DNA of 23,618 nucleotides from a virus. Shown here piece after piece: positions 936-23,618 of the stretch. Position 1 is the first letter of the stretch; every line of letters begins with the position of its first letter. The position numbers and the translations under genes are program-made. The notes below the pieces were generated by a model. The model was not told the origin of the DNA. It saw only the letters and a list, made by a program, of their open reading frames with translations, and did no database searches. The stretch covers positions 1-23,618 of the IMG/VR virus record IMGVR_UViG_3300037234_000351; one strand, 5' to 3'.

Positions 936-1711
936 ATCAAGAGTGTAAACTCTACATCAGTAATGTTTTTCTCCATGATATATCTGCCTGTCATTATACC
1001 ATCCTCGAAAGATTTGGTTTTGATTTATCAAAACTAGATAGAGAGGATAAGAAACAGAGGAACATACAGATCGGATTATGGATCCGAGATAATAAGGAAT
1101 TAGGAAAGTTTTTACGAAATATCACAATTTCAACAATTGATGAATATATACTTTTAAATGAAATCTCTGAGGAGAATATCATTGTCCGTCAGTACGATGG
1201 TTTGATAACTTCTCAATTTCTTAGGGAGACAGAAAATTATATTCCTCTTCCACAAAGAGTGAGATATGATTTTATCTTACTGTCTTTCGACCGAAAAAAG
1301 TATATTGCTTATAGTGCGGGAAAGGACGAATTGGCAATCAAGGGGGTGCCTTACCGATACCCGGAAATGGATAAGATTTATAAAATTTTAGCAAAGCAAC
1401 TAACCAACCCTAAACCAGATACACTCTTTCAGAGAATGAGAGAAATACACGATAGAATAATGGAGTCAAAAAGTCCTCTATTATTTTGTATCCCAACAAC
1501 GGAAGATAAATTTAATGTTTTTCTGAAAGGTTATGGAGAAGTTGAGATATCAAAGACGACAACAAAACTTCTTGATACAAATGATATTGAGAGGATAAGA
1601 TATTTTGATCATTATATGTGGCCATTTATTGAATCAGTGATAGTTGAATTTACAGAGGAACACTATGAAGGATTTAAAACAGAGGTACTCTATAGAAATA
1701 GAGGGGGCTAA
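926..1711 (+). CDS. Unknown protein with faint resemblance to a family B DNA polymerase palm
   Basis: The 261-residue frame starts at GTG 926, inside the end of the previous gene, with only a weak SD (GAGAT). Three segments occur in the order expected for a family B polymerase palm. HDISACHYTIL recalls motif A (DxxSLYP). RNIQIGLWIRDN could stand for the motif B helix. IIVRQYDGLIT recalls the motif C strand (YGDTDS) but has a single Asp. IAYSAG followed by ELAIKGVPYRY resembles the KGv segment after motif C. The protein is far too short for a full polymerase: no exonuclease domain and no clear thumb. It could be a decayed or repurposed palm, or an unrelated phage family. The resemblance is my reading and is weak. 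Confidence 0.55.
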   Translation: MDINQECKLYISNVFLHDISACHYTILERFGFDLSKLDREDKKQRNIQIGLWIRDNKELGKFLRNITISTIDEYILLNEISEENIIVRQYDGLITSQFLRETENYIPLPQRVRYDFILLSFDRKKYIAYSAGKDELAIKGVPYRYPEMDKIYKILAKQLTNPKPDTLFQRMREIHDRIMESKSPLLFCIPTTEDKFNVFLKGYGEVEISKTTTKLLDTNDIERIRYFDHYMWPFIESVIVEFTEEHYEGFKTEVLYRNRGG

Positions 1712-2054
1712 ATGGATGACCCCAAAGCAAATCTCTCAGTGGGCATATCAAAGATGTGCTGATGGAGAAGATACTCCAGAAATAAGAGATATGATAACTG
1801 ATCCCCATTGGGCATACCTATATTGTAAGACTGTTGCAAATAGACCAGAGGTTGCTATTAGAATTACTGAACCAATGTGGGCGGGACCATATTGTAAATT
1901 TCTGGAGACAATGCCACAACTTCTTAACAATGATGAGTGGAGAGAAGTGTATGCGGTTATCCTTTTGTATGCCAGGTGGTCTCCACGTTATATGACTTCA
2001 GCCTCTGACCCTGGCACAGTATATAATGGAGGTTATAGCAGCTCATGTTGTTAA
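1665..2054 (+). CDS. Small protein with W-A-x2-Y-C repeats (repeat-family paralogue 1)
   Basis: Function unknown. The N-terminal part, KWMTPKQISQWAYQRCADGE, matches the N-termini of the next two genes (W-[MI]-x-P-x-[EQM]...C-x2-G), so the three are paralogues. Then come repeats of about 22 residues: ITDPHWAYLYCKTVANRPEV and ITEPMWAGPYCKFLETMPQL. DPxWAxxYa-type repeats of this kind occur in uncharacterised large-phage and giant-virus proteins. Two starts are possible. ATG 1665 has GAGGAA about five bases upstream and keeps the conserved Trp. ATG 1716 has GAGGGGG eight bases upstream but loses that Trp. I chose 1665, which overlaps the previous gene by 47 bases. Confidence 0.55.
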   Translation: MKDLKQRYSIEIEGAKWMTPKQISQWAYQRCADGEDTPEIRDMITDPHWAYLYCKTVANRPEVAIRITEPMWAGPYCKFLETMPQLLNNDEWREVYAVILLYARWSPRYMTSASDPGTVYNGGYSSSCC

Positions 2055-2344
2055 CTCCAACCTGGATAGATCCAGACGAAATGTTTAAAGATATACATAG
2101 GGATTGTAAGAGGGGTAAGGCTGATGAGGAATTGATCCTGGCCTTCTGCTCTAGTATGGCAAAAATGTTCCCTGACACCATCAAATATCAATACCTATCA
2201 TGTTACATAGAGAACCCTGCAAACGCGTGTGATTACTGCACAGAAGTCAGAGACCTACCTTTTGTTAGACTGAAGATTAAAAAAGACCCATACTGGTGGA
2301 GGGTATATGAGTACATTAAACGTCACCGGGGTACTATGTTATAG
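2045..2344 (+). CDS. Small repeat-family protein, paralogue 2
   Basis: This 99-residue protein has an unknown function. Its start overlaps the end of paralogue 1 by ten bases. The N-terminal WIDPDEMFKDIHRDCKRGKA lines up with the same block in the genes on either side. The second half, IENPANACDYCTEVRDLPFV then IKKDPYWWRVYEYIKRH, shows two more degenerate copies of the [IM]-x2-[DN]-P-x-W/A-x2-Y-C repeat. GGAGG at 2028-2032 is 12 bases before ATG 2045, slightly long; TTG 2048 is an alternative start. Confidence 0.6.
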   Translation: MLLTPTWIDPDEMFKDIHRDCKRGKADEELILAFCSSMAKMFPDTIKYQYLSCYIENPANACDYCTEVRDLPFVRLKIKKDPYWWRVYEYIKRHRGTML

Positions 2345-2362
2345 GCACAGGAGGGTCAACCA

Positions 2363-2614
2363 TTGTGGATAGAACCGCACGAGATGTCAGTGTGGGCAAT
2401 GTATAATTGCCTTATGAATGGAGCAGATGAAAAAGAGATGTTAGAGATAATGACCCCTAGAGATAGAAAGAATTATGAGAAGATCAAAGGTAAGAAATTG
2501 AGAGTATGCTTTGACCTTAGGGGAACACCACACTATTGTACTGAATGCTTCTATAACAAAGTGAAAGGGGAATATGAATGTGTGATGAGCGATCAGAAAC
2601 CGCCGAGGAGGTGA
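2363..2614 (+). CDS. Small repeat-family protein, paralogue 3, with a Cys pair
   Basis: This 83-residue protein starts at TTG 2363. GGAGG at 2350-2354 lies eight bases upstream, and no ATG gives the conserved beginning. WIEPHEMSVWAMYNCLMNGA matches the N-terminal block of the two preceding genes. The repeat region of the paralogues is replaced by a charged stretch and by a segment with CTEC and a later Cys (residues roughly 63-76), perhaps a metal site. The basic tail KPPRR is encoded by the bases that form the SD of the next gene, so the two genes are tightly coupled (stop TGA at 2612-2614). Function unknown. Confidence 0.6.
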   Translation: MWIEPHEMSVWAMYNCLMNGADEKEMLEIMTPRDRKNYEKIKGKKLRVCFDLRGTPHYCTECFYNKVKGEYECVMSDQKPPRR

Positions 2615-2619
2615 TGAGG

Positions 2620-3222
2620 ATGAAAACGGCTATTCTGAATGTGGCAGCGGGCAAAGTTCTGCCTTTGGACTTAGATAAGATTGAAAGAGATTTCTTGCTA
2701 ATCAATGTAGATAAGGTGTACTACCACGGAAAGGAGATAAGTGAGGTTGAACAGATTCACGACGAGTGGTTAGCTACGCCGGGATATCAAAATATTCATT
2801 GTAATGCAGACATCTTTGACTTTCTTCAAAGGTACTCAAAGAGGTTTGATAGAGTTGTAGTCTACAGATTTATGGAGCATGTTCGTAGAGCAGATTTATC
2901 TTTCTTTATTTACCTTCTTGCTAATATAATGGAAATGGGAGGTATGATTGATTGTATCATCCCAAACTATCAAGTACTAGCAAGGATGCTAATAGATGAA
3001 GATCTAAGAAATTCGAATTGGGAAGCTCACGATATTCTCCTTACTTCTGAAATTGTTAATGAACCAGACGATCCACACGCTAGTGTCTGGACTCCCGAGA
3101 GGGCGATACATTATTTTGAGTTGGAAGGTAGGTTTAAGGTTACTGACATAGACTCAACGTTTCGTTTTGATGGAAGGGAGATATATATGCGCGTTTTTGC
3201 AGAAAGGGTTGAGACTTTATGA
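2620..3222 (+). CDS. Class I SAM-dependent methyltransferase-like protein
   Basis: The protein has 200 residues. ILNVAAGK (residues 5-12) resembles methyltransferase motif I, though the usual GxGxG is reduced. FDRVVVYRFMEHV is the post-II/motif IV region with the EH seen in Methyltransf_11-type enzymes. ANIMEMGGMIDCIIPNYQVL matches the LKpGG...vPd block. DDPHASVWTPERAIHYFELEG corresponds to the H...fTpe.l..lle.aGF block near the C-terminus. The substrate is unknown. The weak motif I leaves open whether it binds SAM. ATG 2620 is chosen because GAGGAGG at 2605-2611 sits eight bases before it; ATG 2614 is too close to that SD. It overlaps the next gene by ATGA at 3219-3222. Confidence 0.65.
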   Translation: MKTAILNVAAGKVLPLDLDKIERDFLLINVDKVYYHGKEISEVEQIHDEWLATPGYQNIHCNADIFDFLQRYSKRFDRVVVYRFMEHVRRADLSFFIYLLANIMEMGGMIDCIIPNYQVLARMLIDEDLRNSNWEAHDILLTSEIVNEPDDPHASVWTPERAIHYFELEGRFKVTDIDSTFRFDGREIYMRVFAERVETL

Positions 3223-4148
3223 AAAACGTCCAATTTGATAAGGTTGTTGGTTACCTCAAAGCTGAAAAGGTTTTTGGTAATGAGAGAAATTTTACTCGCT
3301 GGCTTAGCAACCGCCTTGATTACTTAACTCTCCCTTTTGGTAGACAATTTACTTTAATTGATAGAGAAAAACCTATTGGCGCTTTTTGGGAAGACATACT
3401 TATGATGGATGAAGAAGGTGGTAAGTGGGTACTCGAAGCTCAGTTTGGTTTGATGGACCATGATCATAATAGTAAGGCTATCACCTATCCCGCACTTGAA
3501 GGTGCTGTAGGCTCAATATGGGTGTGCGAAAGATTTAGACCAGAGTTTATTAAAGTTCTTGAAGAGTTAAATACTTTCATACCACACAGAAATTACTACG
3601 TGTGCCAGCTGACTATACAGGAAAAAGATAATGGATCAATTACTCCAGAATTTAACATAATATTTGGACCTACAATTGAAGAGAAACAAAGGGGAGAACT
3701 TCAGAGGACAGAAAGTAGGGATTATAAAGAGGCTCATAAATTTCTATATCTATTTAAAAACTCAATAGATGGAGAGAATTCCTTATTTAGTGATTGTGAT
3801 CCAAGTACTATATATCTTAAAAAATATATTAAAATAGGTATGGCATATCAAATTGCTGTAACAAAAACTCTTTGCCATGCTGGTATATGGTTTATTCATA
3901 AGAAGGATGGAGAATTAAATTTTAGAAGATACGAAGAATTAAAAGAACATAAAGATATAATAGAAAGTACATTTAATGGAAGTTTAAATTGGAGAGAGGG
4001 CGGTGTTCAAGAGAGAGGAATTACTTATGACTGTAAAACGGGAGGAGTTCGTAATCCAGAGAAATGGGGGCAGGTAATTTCTGAACTTCAGAAAAACTTT
4101 CTGGACCTTTATAATATTGTAGATCCCATTATACAAAATATTTTTTAA
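3219..4148 (+). CDS. DUF4268-like PD-(D/E)XK nuclease-fold protein
   Basis: This 309-residue protein has a candidate nuclease core at residues 55-105. D59 lies in WEDILMMD. After a strand, E73-A-Q75 lies in VLEAQFG, then DHDH (80-83), ITYPALEGA and IWVCERFRPEF. This order matches the N-terminal part of DUF4268-type proteins (viEnQ...tDHdHLGk...tYaagl.a..iVWI...fr.eh). The C-terminal RYEELKEHKDIIE...LNWREG...W matches the DUF4268 part itself. A Gln stands where the catalytic Lys of ExK usually is, as in many members of this group. Activity is inferred, not shown. A restriction or anti-host role is possible. The gene is coupled to the methyltransferase-like gene by ATGA, and its second half is very AT-rich. 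Confidence 0.6.
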   Translation: MKNVQFDKVVGYLKAEKVFGNERNFTRWLSNRLDYLTLPFGRQFTLIDREKPIGAFWEDILMMDEEGGKWVLEAQFGLMDHDHNSKAITYPALEGAVGSIWVCERFRPEFIKVLEELNTFIPHRNYYVCQLTIQEKDNGSITPEFNIIFGPTIEEKQRGELQRTESRDYKEAHKFLYLFKNSIDGENSLFSDCDPSTIYLKKYIKIGMAYQIAVTKTLCHAGIWFIHKKDGELNFRRYEELKEHKDIIESTFNGSLNWREGGVQERGITYDCKTGGVRNPEKWGQVISELQKNFLDLYNIVDPIIQNIF

Positions 4149-4151
4149 ACT

Positions 4152-4184
4152 GCATAGACCATCCTAATCTAGGATGGTCTATGC
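4152..4184. terminator. Perfect 14-bp stem with 5-base loop after the accessory operon
   Basis: Bases 4152-4165 and 4171-4184 are exact reverse complements around the loop AATCT. The stem begins four bases after the stop of the DUF4268-like gene and ends 18 bases before the next ATG. No T-run follows on either strand, so it is not a standard intrinsic terminator. It could be an RNA processing site, an mRNA 3'-end stabiliser, or a terminator helped by another factor. Confidence 0.5.
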
Positions 4185-4202
4185 TTAGCAGAAGGAGGCA
4201 GA

Positions 4203-5099
4203 ATGGCATTTAGGGACCGAGCGTTAGACATGGGGTTAACTGTTCACAGTGAGGGAGTATACCAGTACATTGATCGTCATAGTTCTGTGATGTACCAAGA
4301 GCTCAAAACAAATACCAATTTTTCAGTACCATTGCTAGGAGTGTTTACTCGCAGGACCCCACGCGAGAATGAGGATGCAGAGCAATGGGCATACGTTGGA
4401 TATGTATCAGATGGGTATCAATTTGTTGGAAATGATGCCGTCCTCAGTTCAATTAGAGATTCAATTTCTGAGGTGGGATCACCAATCTTCACTGAGCATA
4501 CATTTATGAATGAGTTCTATACGATGATGCTCAATGAGATGTTGATTCAGAATGTTACAAATCACCCGGAAGTAGGAGACATATATCCAAACATCATCGT
4601 CACGAATAGCTATAATGGTTCAAGGGCTGTTCGAATCACATTTGGTATTTCTATCAGTGAGTCTGAAGGCAACCCGCGCGTCGGTTTCGGATTTCAAACA
4701 TTTGGCCAAATGAGACAAGTTCACTATCAGCATTCTAGGTCAAGAATGTCAACTGCTGTTGGAGCATATATTGACATTTTTTCTCAGAACATTATCAGTC
4801 TTATTGAGGAAAACTTCAACCAAAGAGTCTCTGAGGAAAATATGCTTGCTGTTCTTGACGTAATTGAAAACTCAGTTGGCAAGAGACGTAGGAATTCTCT
4901 TTCCATGTACCTAGAAGAGATTGGTGCAGACAATATCACTTCCTGGAATCTGTTTCACTCCATTTGTAGGTTTAGCTCCATTGAGAAAAACCTGAACGCA
5001 AGGATACTAATGGAGGATGTGGCTGAAAGTGTTTTAACTATTCCTTCACAAATGTTTGAAGCAGTTGCCACATTAGAAGCAGCTAGACAAGCAGCATAG
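4203..5099 (+). CDS. DUF932-like phage protein of unknown function
   Basis: This 298-residue protein follows an excellent SD (GAAGGAGG, six bases before ATG). The centre reads IYPNIIVTNSYNGSRAVRIT, like the conserved v.sNSydGs block of DUF932/LGT-type phage and plasmid proteins, whose role is unknown. WAYVGYVSDGYQFVGNDAVL near residue 65-85 also fits that family (y.~vs~~Y~vv~n~e~). No membrane segment is seen. The C-terminal third is helical and ends in a short Ala-rich tail. An intrinsic terminator follows directly, so it is transcribed as a single gene or as the end of a unit. Confidence 0.55.
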   Translation: MAFRDRALDMGLTVHSEGVYQYIDRHSSVMYQELKTNTNFSVPLLGVFTRRTPRENEDAEQWAYVGYVSDGYQFVGNDAVLSSIRDSISEVGSPIFTEHTFMNEFYTMMLNEMLIQNVTNHPEVGDIYPNIIVTNSYNGSRAVRITFGISISESEGNPRVGFGFQTFGQMRQVHYQHSRSRMSTAVGAYIDIFSQNIISLIEENFNQRVSEENMLAVLDVIENSVGKRRRNSLSMYLEEIGADNITSWNLFHSICRFSSIEKNLNARILMEDVAESVLTIPSQMFEAVATLEAARQAA

Positions 5100-5109
5100 T
5101 TACAAATCC

Positions 5110-5147
5110 AAAAAAAATGGCCTGGTTTACGCCAGGTCTATTTTTTT
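5110..5147 (+). terminator. Intrinsic terminator
   Basis: CCTGG (5121-5125) pairs with CCAGG (5132-5136) around TTTACG. It is flanked by an A-run on the left (5110-5117) and TTTTTTT at 5141-5147 on the right, which can extend the stem. It lies 11 bases after the stop of the DUF932-like gene. Confidence 0.85.
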
Positions 5148-5192
5148 GTCTTTCTGCCGGAACAAATTTAAAAAATATCATGGAGATCGAGT

Positions 5193-6425
5193 ATGCCAGA
5201 TGAACCGGGTAAAAGACCATATGTTCCTTCGAGAAGTTATGATATTCAGGTGAGGATAAAGAACAAAGACTTCTCTATGGATGTGTCTAGAGTTCGTATC
5301 ATCAACTCGCTAGATCGACCATTTCAAATGATTTCCATTGATATGTTTCTCGACCCGAGAGATATAATTTTAGATTACATTTATGGACAAGATCCAATTA
5401 AGATGAGTATACGTTATCTCGGTCAGACACAGCCTGAGCTCCCAAAGGAGCAGATAGACTATACCCTTGTACATTTTAAGTCTGGTTTTACCCTTCCCTT
5501 ACAGCGATCAACCTCCCAAACCGATCAGCCAGATAGAACTAACTTTAGTATAATGACTATTCCAGAGAAAGAGATGTTTTCGTTATCAGGTCTTGTAAAT
5601 AATATTTACTATGCAAAAACGCTACAGGAGATAATGGAAGATTTAACTAAAGAAACATTTTCATCTTTAGAGATTGATCAAGAGAACTTAAACACTGAAC
5701 CTATTGATCAAGTAATTATTCCCCCAGTGAGTTTGAATAGAGCTATTGAATATTTGGATTACACATTCGGATTTTATAAAGGAACAATGGGTTGGAATTT
5801 TAGAGGGGATAGATTATATATTTATAACTTAAATAAAAGAATGAATAAGGCTAACGTATTTATAGTGTACCAACTTGTTTCTGGAGATGATAATAGTAAG
5901 GTGATTGAGGAATGTAATGATGGGAAACGCTTCTATACTTATGAACTTATGCGAAGCGATTATGCAGCTAATACTAGGTTTGCTAGTGAGGCCAGGCATA
6001 TAAACTACATTGTAAAACCTAGAGATACTTTATATAACACTGTCAACTTGGACTTAGAAGAGGTATGTAAGGATTATGGTTTAATATCTAAGAGAGGCAC
6101 TCAAATATTTCACAGTCCCATATTATCTAGATCCAGGTTCCATGTAGACCATACTGGTTATGATACTGACAATACATTTGCGATCTCAAGTGCTACTCGA
6201 CCAATTAGAAATCTCTCTACTCTTAGATTTTCTTTAGAGAGAAATCTCCGTATTTTAAATCTAGTAGATGTTGGTCAGCCTGTAAACTTGAATGTCAAAG
6301 TATCAGAAAATATTGACGCAAGTGGAAATTATATACTTAGATCTTCTGACTTGAGTTTTAACAGAGAAGGTGAATGGCAGGCAGTAGCAACTATTCGATT
6401 AATGAGAACTAATCCAACTCTGTAG
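5193..6425 (+). CDS. Baseplate hub protein (gp27 / late-control-D-like)
   Basis: This 410-residue protein is predicted to form the central hub that joins the tail tube to the baseplate spike. The C-terminal block at about 365-405, VDVGQPVNLNVKVSENIDAS followed by GNYILRSSDLSFNREGEWQA and IRLMRT, matches the end of gpD/gp27-type hubs (a loop, a G-x-Y-x-I strand, then a repeated strand ending in R). The N-terminal half has the alternating strand pattern of a hub barrel (VRIINSLDRPFQMISIDMFL). GGAG lies eight bases before the ATG. It follows a terminator, so it probably has its own promoter. Its assignment rests on pattern and context, not on a unique motif. Confidence 0.6.
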   Translation: MPDEPGKRPYVPSRSYDIQVRIKNKDFSMDVSRVRIINSLDRPFQMISIDMFLDPRDIILDYIYGQDPIKMSIRYLGQTQPELPKEQIDYTLVHFKSGFTLPLQRSTSQTDQPDRTNFSIMTIPEKEMFSLSGLVNNIYYAKTLQEIMEDLTKETFSSLEIDQENLNTEPIDQVIIPPVSLNRAIEYLDYTFGFYKGTMGWNFRGDRLYIYNLNKRMNKANVFIVYQLVSGDDNSKVIEECNDGKRFYTYELMRSDYAANTRFASEARHINYIVKPRDTLYNTVNLDLEEVCKDYGLISKRGTQIFHSPILSRSRFHVDHTGYDTDNTFAISSATRPIRNLSTLRFSLERNLRILNLVDVGQPVNLNVKVSENIDASGNYILRSSDLSFNREGEWQAVATIRLMRTNPTL

Positions 6426-6427
6426 AT

Positions 6428-6467
6428 ACAAAAAGAATGGTGTTAGGAGGCTTACAGCCCCCACACC
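6428..6467 (-). terminator. Intrinsic terminator for the minus-strand zinc-ribbon unit
   Basis: Bases 6439-6467 form an imperfect stem: GGTGT with ACACC, GG with CC, and GGCT with AGCC, around TAC. Read on the minus strand it is followed by ATTCTTTTTG (6438-6429), a U-rich tail. On the plus strand it lies 14 bases after the hub gene but has no T-run there, so it mainly serves the minus strand. Confidence 0.55.
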
Positions 6468-6489
6468 CATATGGGAAAACATAACTTTA

Positions 6490-6639
6490 TTACAAAGAAA
6501 ATAACATCCTCGTAAAACTAAAATATATGGGCAATACTTTTACCACCACCTTTCTATTAACTATGTTTGAGTCTTCGTCGGGCGATTCCTCGCCGTGTTT
6601 ACCTATACTGCTGAGTTCTCCTTTCAAGACACTCAACAT
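6490..6639 (-). CDS. Small ORF of 49 codons with a very strong SD
   Basis: The ATG at 6639 lies inside the last codons of the zinc-ribbon gene (AAATGTTGA). It is preceded by AAGGAGG five bases upstream, one of the best SD matches in the window. The protein starts MLSVLKGELSSIGKHGEESP, is acidic in the middle and ends in a hydrophobic VVVKVLPIYFSFTRMLFSL. No family is recognised. The SD and the tight overlap with a real gene argue that it is translated. It is followed by the terminator at 6428-6467. Confidence 0.5.
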   Translation of the reverse strand: MLSVLKGELSSIGKHGEESPDEDSNIVNRKVVVKVLPIYFSFTRMLFSL

Positions 6640-6902
6640 TTCCACCTCCTTCTTTTGTGGATGTGGTTGACACTAGCGACCTCGTACTGTTGGCCACACA
6701 ACATGCAGTATAGTCCCTCAAGGGGAAGAGTGTGTTTTTCTGTACTCGGCGGCATCACGATGATACCTCTGTCACAAACAGGGCAGGGCACTGATTCCTC
6801 GTAAACAAAGTTTTCGAGTTCCAATACGGGATTATGTGCATTCCTTCCACTGATGGTAAATCCTTTGTCATAAGCAGACCCCAGTTTCCTTGCCAAGTTC
6901 AT
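6633..6902 (-). CDS. Small zinc-ribbon protein
   Basis: This 89-residue protein has CPVC at about residues 40-43 and CMLC at 66-69, the latter followed by GQQYEV. Two CxxC knuckles about 26 residues apart suggest a zinc ribbon. The C-terminus is basic (HKRRRWKC) and may bind nucleic acid. The ATG at 6902 has GAGAGGAA upstream. It stands alone on the minus strand between the hub and terminase genes, divergent from the terminase. A regulatory or DNA-binding role is inference. The start directly abuts the stop of an 18-codon upstream ORF. Confidence 0.7.
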   Translation of the reverse strand: MNLARKLGSAYDKGFTISGRNAHNPVLELENFVYEESVPCPVCDRGIIVMPPSTEKHTLPLEGLYCMLCGQQYEVASVNHIHKRRRWKC

Positions 6903-6959
6903 TCAGTCTTCCTCTCTCTTCTTCTTCCAGGTTTTTTCAAACCCCCTTTCAGGTAACAT
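6903..6959 (-). other. Possible 18-codon upstream ORF in the zinc-ribbon leader
   Basis: Starting at the ATG at 6959 the frame reads MLPERGFEKTWKKKREED. It stops with a TGA that directly abuts the zinc-ribbon ATG. The nearest purine run (AGAGG) touches the ATG, which is too close for normal initiation. It could be a leader peptide or chance. Confidence 0.2.
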
Positions 6960-7026
6960 CCTCTAAATAAAAAAATAATCAATCTCTGCTTCTACCTACA
7001 CAACCTCCTTTCCTTCTTTCTTTTTT

Positions 7027-7065
7027 TTCTCCTCGTTGGGCGAGGATTATGACCAACGAGGAGAA
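7027..7065. promoter_or_regulatory. Strong 13-bp hairpin in the leader of the divergent zinc-ribbon/terminase region
   Basis: Bases 7027-7039 and 7053-7065 are exact reverse complements (TTCTCCTCGTTGG and its partner) around a 13-base loop. A run of eight T precedes it on the plus strand, that is, A on the minus strand. It therefore does not look like a terminator in either direction. It lies within the 5' leader of the zinc-ribbon gene and upstream of the terminase. The CTCCTC arm could bind an SD. Confidence 0.45.
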
Positions 7066-7118
7066 CTGTTAAGGTTTGGCCGAACTAAAAAAACTACAAC
7101 AATCCTCTACTAGTAAGT

Positions 7119-7147
7119 AATATATATAGCAAGTTTTCTCATCCCAA
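7119..7147 (-). promoter_or_regulatory. Candidate sigma70-like promoter for the zinc-ribbon gene
   Basis: On the minus strand TTGGGA (7147-7142) is followed after 17 bases by TATATT (7124-7119). A 7-bp palindrome (TTCTCAT 7136-7142 / ATGAGAA 7150-7156) overlaps the -35 box and could be an operator. The region is AT-rich, so a chance match is possible. Confidence 0.35.
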
Positions 7148-7197
7148 AAATGAGAACAAATAAAAAAGGTAGGATGCGACTACGTTAAGGAGAATAG

Positions 7198-8826
7198 ATG
7201 ATAGATCCACAGAAACTCGAAGACCACGCTCAGAAGTATGTCTCCGAGTACTTAAAGTGCAAAAAAGATTTTATCTACTTCTGCAAAAAGTATGTAAAGA
7301 TTGAATTGCCTGGGGGAGATGTACCTCTTATTCCCTACAACGCGCAAGAAAAACTGATAAAGGAAATTATCCGGAAACATTTCATTTTCGTTCTAAAATC
7401 TAGACAGATAGGAATTTCAACTATAATTCAAGCATTGATATGTTGGTTAGTAGTATTTTATAAGAACGTAGTCATTGGAATCATCTCAAAAGATGCACCT
7501 GAGGCAACTGATTTCGCTCGTCACATTATGAGCATGATTGATAAGTTGCCCAGATGGATGGCTCCTAAGTTTACTAAAAGAACAGAAAGGACATTCATAC
7601 TAAGTAATGGCTGTAAATGTTTCGCATCGCCGGTTGCCCCGAATGCTCCTGAGAAGACTTTACGTGGTAAATCCGTCACTTTCCTCGTTATTGATGAAGC
7701 AGCATTTATTAAATTTATCGACGACGCGTGGACTGGCATGGTTCCGGCGTTATCGACGAATCAGAAAAATGCGAGGGAGAAGAAGGTCCCCTTTGGTACT
7801 GTAATACTTTCTACTCCAAATAAGACTCAAGGAGTTGGTAAGTGGTTTTACGAGCGGTATCAAAGAGCTGTTAGTAAAGATGATATTTTTAAACCAGTAC
7901 AGATTCACTGGGGGGATATACCACAGTTGGCAGCTGATCCAGACTGGTATAAAACCCAGTGTGAACTTTGGGGCCACGATAAGAGAAAAATTCAACAGGA
8001 GCTGGAACTTAAGTTCATTGCGTCGACAGGTTCATTCTTTGATGCTGATATAATTGAGAATCTGCAGGATATAAAGGTTGAACCAATTAACATTATGAAG
8101 TTATACAATGGAGAGATATGGAAGTTTTCAGACCCAATTCCCGGAAGATTTTATATTGCAGGAGTTGATACTGCTCCTGAGTTTGGCAGTGATAAATCAG
8201 CTGTTGAAGTATTTGACTATGAAACTCTTGAACAGGTTTGGGAATTTCAAGGAAAATGTTCAGTAACTGACTTTACAGAAGTTGTTAAAATGGCCGGTAT
8301 TCAATATCCTGGTTGCATAGTTATTGAAAACAATTCATATGGAAATCAGGTTGCTGAAGCAATTAATAATACTGACCTCTCGATGATGATGTACAAAGAG
8401 AAAAAAGGGAAGGATCAAATTGTACCTGGTTTGAATACAAACTCAAGGACAAGGCCACTAATGATTGATTCTCTTTATTCTTACATAAGTGAATTTCCTG
8501 AGTGTATCAAATCAAAAAGATTGATCCTTGAGTTGATTGGTTTGATAAGTAAACCAAGTGGCAGAGTCGAGGCCGATAGTGGTTGTAATGATGACTTATC
8601 ACTCGCTGCTGCGTGTGCATATTACGTTCGTAAATATGATCCACCAATGATGATTGATATGCCAGGAGTACAGGAAAGTTCCCTAGAAGCTATAATGAAT
8701 CTTAATTATAGGGATAGTGCTGTTCCATTTAGGAATCAGAAAATTTTAGATGATGTACGAAAGAGAATTATCGAAGGGGAGATTGATGATCCATTTGTTG
8801 ATATAGTAGGTACATACATGAGTTAG
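7198..8826 (+). CDS. Terminase large subunit (ATPase plus nuclease)
   Basis: This 542-residue packaging motor cuts the genome and drives it into the prohead. The Walker A-like SRQIGIST is at 68-75. Walker B FLVIDEAA is at 162-169 with the catalytic Glu 168. The coupling motif ILSTPN is at 203-208. The C-terminal RNase-H-like nuclease shows D324 in GVDTA, E377 in IVIENNSYG and the Asp pair 465-466 in NDDLSLA. All the usual residues are present, and the length fits T4 gp17-type enzymes without large insertions. AAGGAG lies about seven bases before ATG 7198. No small subunit is recognised nearby. Confidence 0.95.
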   Translation: MIDPQKLEDHAQKYVSEYLKCKKDFIYFCKKYVKIELPGGDVPLIPYNAQEKLIKEIIRKHFIFVLKSRQIGISTIIQALICWLVVFYKNVVIGIISKDAPEATDFARHIMSMIDKLPRWMAPKFTKRTERTFILSNGCKCFASPVAPNAPEKTLRGKSVTFLVIDEAAFIKFIDDAWTGMVPALSTNQKNAREKKVPFGTVILSTPNKTQGVGKWFYERYQRAVSKDDIFKPVQIHWGDIPQLAADPDWYKTQCELWGHDKRKIQQELELKFIASTGSFFDADIIENLQDIKVEPINIMKLYNGEIWKFSDPIPGRFYIAGVDTAPEFGSDKSAVEVFDYETLEQVWEFQGKCSVTDFTEVVKMAGIQYPGCIVIENNSYGNQVAEAINNTDLSMMMYKEKKGKDQIVPGLNTNSRTRPLMIDSLYSYISEFPECIKSKRLILELIGLISKPSGRVEADSGCNDDLSLAAACAYYVRKYDPPMMIDMPGVQESSLEAIMNLNYRDSAVPFRNQKILDDVRKRIIEGEIDDPFVDIVGTYMS

Positions 8827-21956: not shown

Positions 21957-22661
21957 TTAGTCAACCTGTATCATTGATTCTAATTGTTTTATTACCTGTA
22001 AAGTCGCAGCCCAGTTCCCTTCAAATCTGACTGCTCTATCATCAATATAAAATTCAGCTGGTAACTTTTCACTGGTTATCATATCGAATGGAATATCATA
22101 TTTGATAAGCCATTCTCTCACCATTCGCTCTTGTTCTTTCCAGTCGGGCTTAGACTTTCCTGTCCTTGCCGAAAAAATTACAATTTCGTATCCCCTTTCT
22201 TTTAACTCATTCATTGCTTCTCGTGCCCCTGCTATGGGTGGATCATAAACTGTTCCATCAGACCAACCCTTAGAATACTGGTGAAGAGTTTTATCCAAAT
22301 CAACAAGAACTCTCTTCTTTCTCATAACAGTCTGCTCATTCGGATAAGGAACACGAAGGACCTTTTTCTTTTTCTTTTCATAAGGCCAGTCCATAGGGAA
22401 AATAGATTCATACTCTTTAATTTTGGATATTATTTTATTTAAAATCTTTTGCTCATATCTACTTCCAACATCCTCAATATTTACCAACGAGAGACCACAT
22501 GATGTACACTTCATCACCGAACATGGTATGCTTTCTTGTCGAGAAACTGGTTTCCCAAATAACTCGCATGTCTTATTTTCACAGGTACAAGCATCTGTTT
22601 TGCCGACCCCTGCTCTTGGGCCGCCAGCAGTCAGTTGCTCGATAACTCTTCTTAACATCAT
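21957..22661 (-). CDS. Zinc-finger/HAD-family phosphatase fusion
   Basis: Two parts are visible (234 residues from ATG 22661). The first 60 residues carry TAGGPRAGVG and then C-x-C, C, PC and C-x2-C (CTCENKTC ... PCSVMKCTSCG), resembling a small phage/archaeal zinc-finger protein. From residue 115 it is a HAD hydrolase: VLVDLDKTLH (nucleophile D121 and acid D123), FSARTG (motif II Ser), EKLPAEFYIDDRA (motif III Lys and motif IV Asp pair). A phosphatase acting on nucleotide or polynucleotide ends is plausible. ATG 22676 is an alternative start but has no SD; ATG 22661 has GGAG nine bases upstream. It opens the minus operon. Confidence 0.75.
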   Translation of the reverse strand: MMLRRVIEQLTAGGPRAGVGKTDACTCENKTCELFGKPVSRQESIPCSVMKCTSCGLSLVNIEDVGSRYEQKILNKIISKIKEYESIFPMDWPYEKKKKKVLRVPYPNEQTVMRKKRVLVDLDKTLHQYSKGWSDGTVYDPPIAGAREAMNELKERGYEIVIFSARTGKSKPDWKEQERMVREWLIKYDIPFDMITSEKLPAEFYIDDRAVRFEGNWAATLQVIKQLESMIQVD

Positions 22662-22804
22662 TCGCGCTATCTCCATGGATAGTTGGCATTTATTATTTGT
22701 TCTTTGCTATGTAATAAATGGGAGGGTCAGATTCATTAATAAGTTGAATAACTATATATATTAATTTTAAAGTGATGTGGTTGTAGTTTTAATTGTTTAT
22801 AAGT

Positions 22805-22909
22805 TTCCCGGCTCTTTGAGATTGGCCCTATCTCAAAAACGTGAGGACTGTGCTGTTTGAACGGTACGAACCTCAGTTAACCTCCTTGTCAAGAGCCGGG
22901 AATTTTTTT
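22805..22909 (+). ncRNA. Candidate structured RNA with its own intrinsic terminator
   Basis: A 12-bp closing stem (22805-22816 with 22891-22902) is followed by TTTTTTT (22903-22909), giving a terminator-like end. Two inner hairpins lie inside. P2 is TGAGAT/ATCTCA (22817-22822 / 22830-22835) with loop TGGCCCT. P3 is TGAGG/CCTCA (22842-22846 / 22871-22875), then a 3x3 internal loop, then GTGCTGT-TTGA-ACGGTAC (22850-22867). This makes a three-way junction. Bases 22876-22890 stay unpaired and contain CCTCCTT, the 16S rRNA anti-SD core. A TATAAG at 22798-22803 could be a -10 box, but no clear -35 is seen. It may act as a free RNA, or as a leader of the gene at 22945. Confidence 0.6.
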
Positions 22910-22944
22910 AGGACTATGGAACAAAAAACTGATAGGAGATCTAA

Positions 22945-23163
22945 ATGAATGATGTTAATAGTATTACGGATAATATTTTCCCAGAAGTCCCACGTGAAGC
23001 AGTTGAAAAGTTGTGTGAAATACTAATTACTAAAAATCTAAAAGATACGGAGGAATTAAGAGTTGTAGCGAAGAAGCAAATTATTACAAGTATCATGTTT
23101 CTTGAAGAATTAGGGGCTAGTGTATCATGGAAAAATGGGGAGGGAGAAAAGTCAACACACTAG
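22945..23163 (+). CDS. Small unknown protein
   Basis: This 72-residue protein begins after AGGAGATCTAA. The N-terminus is acidic (MNDVNSITDNIFPEVPREAV), followed by two predicted helices (KLCEILITKNLK and TEELRVVAKKQIITSIMFLE). No family is recognised. It is the first gene after the candidate RNA, whose terminator ends 35 bases upstream, and it is followed ten bases later by a membrane protein gene. Confidence 0.6.
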   Translation: MNDVNSITDNIFPEVPREAVEKLCEILITKNLKDTEELRVVAKKQIITSIMFLEELGASVSWKNGEGEKSTH

Positions 23164-23173
23164 GAGGGGAATC

Positions 23174-23371
23174 ATGTACGACGTTGATCTTTGGCTTGTT
23201 ATCAGATGTCTCCTCTTCCTAATATCAATCTGTGGAGTTTGGCTTGGATTCTACTTAGTATTTAGGGCTTACAGGAAGACTCTTGAAAGAGCAGCCTACT
23301 TAGTCGGTATCATTTTTATTTCAGCGGGGGGATTTATTTTGCTGGTATTGACCACAGATATCTTTTATTAG
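23174..23371 (+). CDS. Small two-helix membrane protein
   Basis: This 65-residue protein has two hydrophobic segments, residues 6-30 (LWLVIRCLLFLISICGVWLG onward) and 40-64 (AAYLVGIIFISAGGFILLVL onward), joined by a short basic loop (RAYRKTLER). ATG 23174 is chosen because AGGAGGGG lies just upstream; a longer in-frame start at 23120 would overlap the previous gene. Size and topology fit a holin, but no lysis gene is adjacent, so another small membrane role is equally possible. It ends eight bases before the radical SAM gene. Confidence 0.65.
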   Translation: MYDVDLWLVIRCLLFLISICGVWLGFYLVFRAYRKTLERAAYLVGIIFISAGGFILLVLTTDIFY

Positions 23372-23379
23372 GAGGGAAG

Positions 23380-23618
23380 ATGATTACACGAAGGGTTGGA
23401 ACAAAGAAGATTGTTGAGACGGAGCGGTATGTAATTATTTTTAATGTAGCAAATGGCAAAGAGATCACCTTTGGGAAACCCGGTTTTCCTGATCCTTTCA
23501 TGCTGGACTACCCAAATCTAATTGATATTGGGATTATGGGTCATTGTCTAAATAAGTGTAAATTTTGCTATCAAGGCGGTCAAGAACAACCAAACATGAA
23601 ACTTGAGGACTTCAGGAG
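23380..23618 (+). CDS. Radical SAM enzyme, N-terminal part (3' truncated by window end)
   Basis: The visible 79 codons start MITRRVGTKKIVETERYVII after AGGAGGGAAG. C56-x3-C60-x2-C63 in GHCLNKCKFCYQGG is the radical SAM [4Fe-4S] motif. It is preceded by LIDIGIMG, a strand like the first strand of the radical SAM barrel, and followed by a Gln-rich loop. These enzymes cleave S-adenosylmethionine to start radical chemistry. The substrate cannot be told from this fragment. The gene runs past the right edge of the window. It lies in a plus-strand group with two small genes. Confidence 0.8.
   Translation, partial: MITRRVGTKKIVETERYVIIFNVANGKEITFGKPGFPDPFMLDYPNLIDIGIMGHCLNKCKFCYQGGQEQPNMKLEDFR

Follow-up and report, generated by a model that had tools for sequence, protein, structure and literature searches.

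Near the right-hand end of the window, which is the whole stretch of viral DNA analyzed here (23,618 nucleotides), an operon on the plus strand (22945-23616) encodes a 72-amino-acid protein, a small membrane protein, and a radical-SAM/SPASM protein that is cut by the window end. This operon is conserved in distant phages and its ORFs stay intact; on contig L008 it continues with further small proteins. It runs from 22945 onward in the window, from 1028 to 4734 on the minus strand of L008, and from 4797 to 8243 on the plus strand of L117, and several of its proteins begin with a sequence like MK(I/V/L)(R/K)xDFVTNSSS. A HAD-phosphatase gene (21957-22676) is divergent from the operon, and the gap between the two contains three features on the plus strand: an early-type promoter motif, CTATATATATTAATT (22752-22766); a 105-base element (22805-22909) that begins 39 nt downstream of this motif and ends 35 nt before the first operon gene; and a candidate late-type promoter core, GAACAAA (22919-22925), between the terminator of the element and the gene at 22945.

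The element is predicted to fold into a three-way junction of -42.5 kcal/mol, and none of 200 dinucleotide shuffles was equally stable (z = -5.46). Closing stem P1 joins 22805-22815 to 22892-22902 (plus strand) in 11 G+C-rich base pairs (TTCCCGGCTCT/AGAGCCGGGAA) and abuts a run of seven T's (T7, 22903-22909), so that the stem closing the whole junction doubles as the stem of an intrinsic-type terminator (3' arm plus T7, 22892-22909). Hairpin P2 (22816-22822/22830-22836) carries the loop TGGCCCT (22823-22829), and hairpin P3, which has a TTGA tetraloop and wobble pairs, consists of 22842-22846/22871-22875 (TGAGG/CCTCA) and 22850-22856/22861-22867 (GTGCTGT/ACGGTAC). The joint between P3 and P1, GTTAACCTCCTTGTCA (22876-22891), is predicted to be unpaired; it includes CCTCCTT at 22881-22887 and holds the string ACCTCCTT, the anti-Shine-Dalgarno (anti-SD) string of 16S rRNA. 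The stems, the terminator tail, and the joint with CCTCCTT had been picked out by a first-pass annotation made from the letters alone; all lie where it had placed them, and the fold outperforms its shuffles. The P1-T7 arrangement provides the G+C-rich stem and U run of a terminated sRNA, and no other site in the window has a perfect G+C-rich 10-bp stem closing 50 to 150 nt and followed by at least six T's (mean in shuffled windows, 0.0). P1 forms with a probability near 1 in a longer transcript, and forbidding its 5' arm costs ∼15 kcal/mol. Folding gave no alternative to P1 and no antiterminator, i.e., no second state of the kind found in a two-state attenuator or riboswitch.

A protein search that started from the divergent HAD gene yielded homologs on eight IMG/VR contigs (L002 to L009), with six distinct elements: that of the window (the same as L002), L003, L004, L005, L009, and a diverged sequence shared by L006, L007, and L008. 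RNAalifold returned the same three-way junction from the alignment of these six sequences. In the structure described above, 97.2% of the cells were paired and five pairs showed two-sided changes, a number reached in none of 500 shuffles; when partners were slid by 1 to 3 columns, the two-sided changes dropped to 0 or 1. Four of the five (one in P1, two in P2, and one in P3b) are safe, but the fifth (P3a) rests on a doubtful alignment of L008, after realignment of which only a G-U change is left in that helix, and P3 taken alone is not significant (88 of 500 shuffles). Conservation is highest in P1 and T7. T7 is invariant among all homologs, as are 9 of the 11 P1 pairs; one of the other two shows a compensatory change from U-A to C-G, and one is broken in L008. 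In L008, P2 retains five of its seven pairs, two of them with compensatory changes, and its loop is longer, while P3 shows one compensatory change from G-C to A-U and one pair that occurs as G-U, A-U, and G-C. Compensatory changes, by which the first-pass annotation had proposed to check the fold, are thus present in the homologs. They all come from the diverged lineage L006 to L008, in a set of six sequences and two lineages in total, and we regard them as good evidence of selection on the fold, though from few independent events.

The suspicion that the element belongs to no recognized RNA class held up: Rfam 15 contained no match at the gathering threshold and gave only chance hits up to an E value of 10, and the ordinary-terminator hit that might have explained the element away did not appear. 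No tRNA or tmRNA was found in the window. Membership in the C4 antisense RNA family (RF01695) was rejected, as its covariance model gave no match up to an E value of 10. We also rejected an antisense reading. On the minus strand, CCTCCTT reads AAGGAGG, but the window has no start codon at SD spacing behind it, and the U run exists on the plus strand only. Exact pattern scans and a covariance model run over 21 related records found further copies in the window's clade only; one covariance-model match in G013 (E = 0.55) was taken as chance, and no similar DNA was found in named phages. In our view, a conserved RNA unit with a structured body and its own terminator very probably exists at this locus; it is a new RNA without an Rfam family, although jumbo phages are already known to make RNAs of this kind.

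The early promoter motif, which is absent from the first-pass annotation, defines the likely transcription unit. Its exact core, CTATATATATTA, occurs twice in the window and 14 times in G001, a 277-kb relative, where many copies lie directly upstream of an SD sequence and a gene. Its appearance is that of the AR9/phiKZ virion RNA polymerase type, and in jumbo phage AR9 a similar sequence, AAATATATATTAT-(6N)-G+1, is the early promoter ascribed to the virion RNA polymerase (PMC5312081); by eye, a purine is present at the expected start. G001 encodes an RNA polymerase beta-like (RpoB-like) protein (PF00562, E = 7e-46), the one subunit looked at, whereas the window is only a fragment of its genome. 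This 1,364-amino-acid protein is encoded at L101:13881-17972 (minus strand), and the terminase of the phage group matches the T4-type terminase family. By AR9/phiKZ spacing, transcription is predicted to start near 22771, and the promoter motif and terminator together predict a discrete transcript of ∼139 nt (22771-22909, plus strand). Short ORFs in this stretch, such as MWL at 22775, are not conserved and provide no candidate leader peptide. A sigma-70 scan found 36 sites where 32.7 were expected.

A second putative promoter motif, (A/G)GAACAAAT-NNNAAA (that is, RGAACAAAT-NNNAAA), emerged when words in front of G001 genes were counted de novo. In G001, 27 of the 87 copies of GAACAAA are intergenic and at most 120 nt from a same-strand gene; unrelated control words reached 0 to 2 in the same count, the reverse complement reached 5, and words overlapping the motif reached up to 15. 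G001 shows no enrichment of the AR9 late motif in its original form (AACA-6N-TA/G). Besides the site behind the element, the window contains three more: one that belongs to the divergent HAD gene (22696-22702, minus strand, 20.7 bits), one before the terminase gene (7154, plus strand), and one at 5160 (plus strand). The site at 22919 scores 12.0 bits (rank ∼48 of 554,226 G001 positions) and is conserved in six of six sequences, and we regard it as a candidate for the operon's late promoter. Because the downstream AA of typical sites is missing, it scores below 28 of the 29 training sites (15.7 to 23.3 bits), a weakness that counts against the reading proposed below. Some AR9 genes are preceded by an early as well as a late promoter (PMC5312081), which offers a precedent for the layout seen here. 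The likeness to the early units of AR9 and phiKZ (PMC5312081, PMC7598289) extends to an AT-rich early motif, a second, AACA-containing late motif, genes with both promoters, and long 5' untranslated regions (UTRs). However, those phages belong to another group, and their late motif is AACA-6N-TA/G rather than RGAACAAAT-NNNAAA.

In the searches described above, the RNA was confined to the window's clade. In L117 (the same as L135) and L140 to L144, the early promoter lies beside the operon, with a gene within tens of bases and no RNA in between, and in L010 and L011 the promoter is likewise followed by a gene. Since these relatives have promoter and operon without the RNA, the distribution is most simply explained by a gain of the RNA between an ancestral early promoter and the radical-SAM operon, with loss elsewhere as the alternative.

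Two unpaired strings, TGGCCCTA in the P2 loop and AACCTCCT in the joint, are invariant in six of six distinct sequences. The P2 loop is conserved as TGGCCCT(A), with GGCCCTA invariant. P2 and the linkers diverge around both strings and both are C-rich, which suggests that the unpaired strings are the active parts. The accessibility of AACCTCCTT is 0.7 to 1.0 in five of the six sequences, so that most homologs display the conserved, unpaired C-rich motif of SD-binding sRNAs; in L008, the core is predicted to be mostly paired. The first-pass annotation had proposed that the anti-SD string in the joint could sequester SD sequences, and because the string is kept in every homolog, this idea stays alive. 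C-rich unpaired motifs of sRNAs from low-GC bacteria (LhrC, RNAIII, RsaE, and FsrA) bind SD sequences (PMC4132741), and given the invariance and composition of the two strings, we judge SD pairing to be the most likely action. Complementarity to SD sequences is of a generic kind and singles out no specific target: extended complementarity (AAGGAGGTTA) was found for three genes in G001, about the number expected from base composition by our own estimate. Pairing with the operon's own SD was considered and dropped, as it amounts to a generic AGGAG/CUCCU match of 5 to 6 bp only, with no covariation by eye. Phage ribosomal protein S21, a possible reason for a 16S mimic, was not found in G001, G002, G003, or G006.

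We propose, with a probability of roughly 45%, that the element is a discrete early sRNA with its own promoter and terminator that acts in trans by SD pairing. The phage early promoter (22752-22766) would start the RNA near 22771 early in infection, and intrinsic termination would end it at 22909. The junction would hold the C-rich AACCUCCU of the joint and GGCCCUA of the P2 loop open, and these segments may pair with SD regions, so that certain host or phage mRNAs would be translated less in the early phase. The RNA would have been inserted before the radical-SAM operon, which would now have a separate late-type promoter behind the terminator. A stand-alone RNA is favored over a switch because P1 is a terminator that closes the junction, no competing fold was found, and the operon has a promoter candidate of its own. 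Weighing against action in trans by SD pairing are the origin of the two-sided changes in one lineage among six sequences and the predicted pairing of most of the CCUCC core in L008. A general block of SD sequences would conflict with the strong SDs that phage mRNAs also carry, so some targeting would be needed.

Attenuation in cis is the main rival to this trans-acting sRNA. The element would then be a 5' leader whose terminator sets early read-through into the 22945 operon, either constitutively or under regulation, while the RNA body stabilizes or modulates termination and the sRNA is a by-product. The short distances from the early promoter motif and to the first gene fit such a leader, as do the intact operon ORFs, and phiKZ provides a parallel in the ∼180-nt RNA measured in the 5' UTR of p40, for whose second stem-loop premature termination has been proposed (PMC8545117). 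We nevertheless find cis attenuation somewhat doubtful, given the absence of an antiterminator or of any alternative to P1 at its cost of ∼15 kcal/mol, the absence of a conserved leader ORF, and the late-type promoter match behind the terminator. The same points weaken the attenuator or riboswitch before 22945 that the first-pass annotation had offered among its interpretations; its structured, terminated RNA outside the recognized classes was supported, and the anti-SD string that it pointed out proved to be conserved.

The conservation of P1 and T7 above all other parts, together with the late-type promoter match of the operon, would also suit a strong terminator and nothing else, one that insulates the operon from the early promoter as an early-to-late switch and leaves inner hairpins and strings functionless. 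For that task a simple hairpin would suffice, whereas TGGCCCTA and AACCTCCT are invariant and P2 and P3 show compensatory changes, and we consider this explanation unlikely. A three-way junction with conserved unpaired segments could instead be a riboswitch-like or decoy RNA in which the loop and joint bind a protein or ligand rather than mRNA. No Rfam class matches and no switchable structure is apparent, which makes this highly improbable; a riboswitch in particular is disfavored because no fold competing with the closing stem was found.

Among known systems, the phiKZ p40 5'-UTR noncoding RNA (Grad-seq, PMC8545117) is similar in being a structured jumbo-phage 5'-UTR RNA of 100 to 200 nt that ends in a stem-loop that may terminate before the gene. 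That RNA has two stem-loops; in the element, by contrast, the terminator stem closes a junction. The phiKZ RNA was measured, and the element here is predicted. LhrC, RNAIII, RsaE, SprD, and FsrA (as listed in PMC4132741) share unpaired C-rich motifs in loops or joints, located beside a terminator and complementary to SD regions. Their motif is UCCC, in contrast to ACCUCCU and GGCCCU in the element, which is phage encoded, and we claim no homology. C4 antisense RNA of phages P1 and P7 (RF01695) likewise has three stems, and its loops target mRNAs (PMC5320573) in the region of the ribosome-binding site (PMC12197685). RNase P excises it from a longer transcript, however; the element here has a terminator of its own.

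Structured RNAs were also seen behind other early promoters, and two of these, the second leader in the window and the unit at G001:228553, speak for the early sRNA reading. In the window, a second early promoter at 7129 (minus strand) is followed by a structured leader of ∼220 nt that extends to ∼6900. One of its hairpins (∼7065-7027) has CCTC in the loop, invariant in five distinct sequences, and some compensatory stem changes in L189 to L194, a covariation that is suggestive only. Also in the leader are an SD-like AAAGGAGG, to which no conserved ORF belongs, and a GGTTTGAAAAAACC hairpin that is conserved and precedes an ORF whose product begins with MNLARKLGSA. A unit that looks like a free-standing noncoding RNA gene lies at G001:228553 to ∼228340 (minus strand, L107), with an early promoter, a compact fold closed by CTCTGGAGG/CCTCCAGAG, a terminator, and a second early promoter at 228314. 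At L101:12799-12996 (G001:112799-112996, minus strand), an early promoter precedes a long hairpin (z = -7.05) whose loop is CCCCCC and which has a T tail; this hairpin was not found in G002. Next come a DUF3800-VI RNA, matched in Rfam at 44.1 bits, and an ORF. Early promoters are likewise followed by structured RNAs at G001:255018 and, with terminators, in G016 (L180 and L181), and in G013 (L178) by a tRNA-like sequence with a terminal CCA. Structured RNAs after early promoters may be a habit of this phage group.

Noncoding RNAs of jumbo phages are hardly known, and 21 had been described in phages at the time of the phiKZ study (PMC8545117). It is conceivable, although improbable, that this group of RNA polymerase-encoding phages uses a set of early-promoter RNAs displaying CCUC or CCUCC in loops or joints as a phage-made anti-SD system; if so, this system would shift translation between mRNA classes at the start of infection. 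With predicted ends, a supported fold, two invariant strings, and relatives with and without the RNA, the role of the element is directly testable. For this uncultivated phage group, the two promoter motifs offer a first map of transcription.
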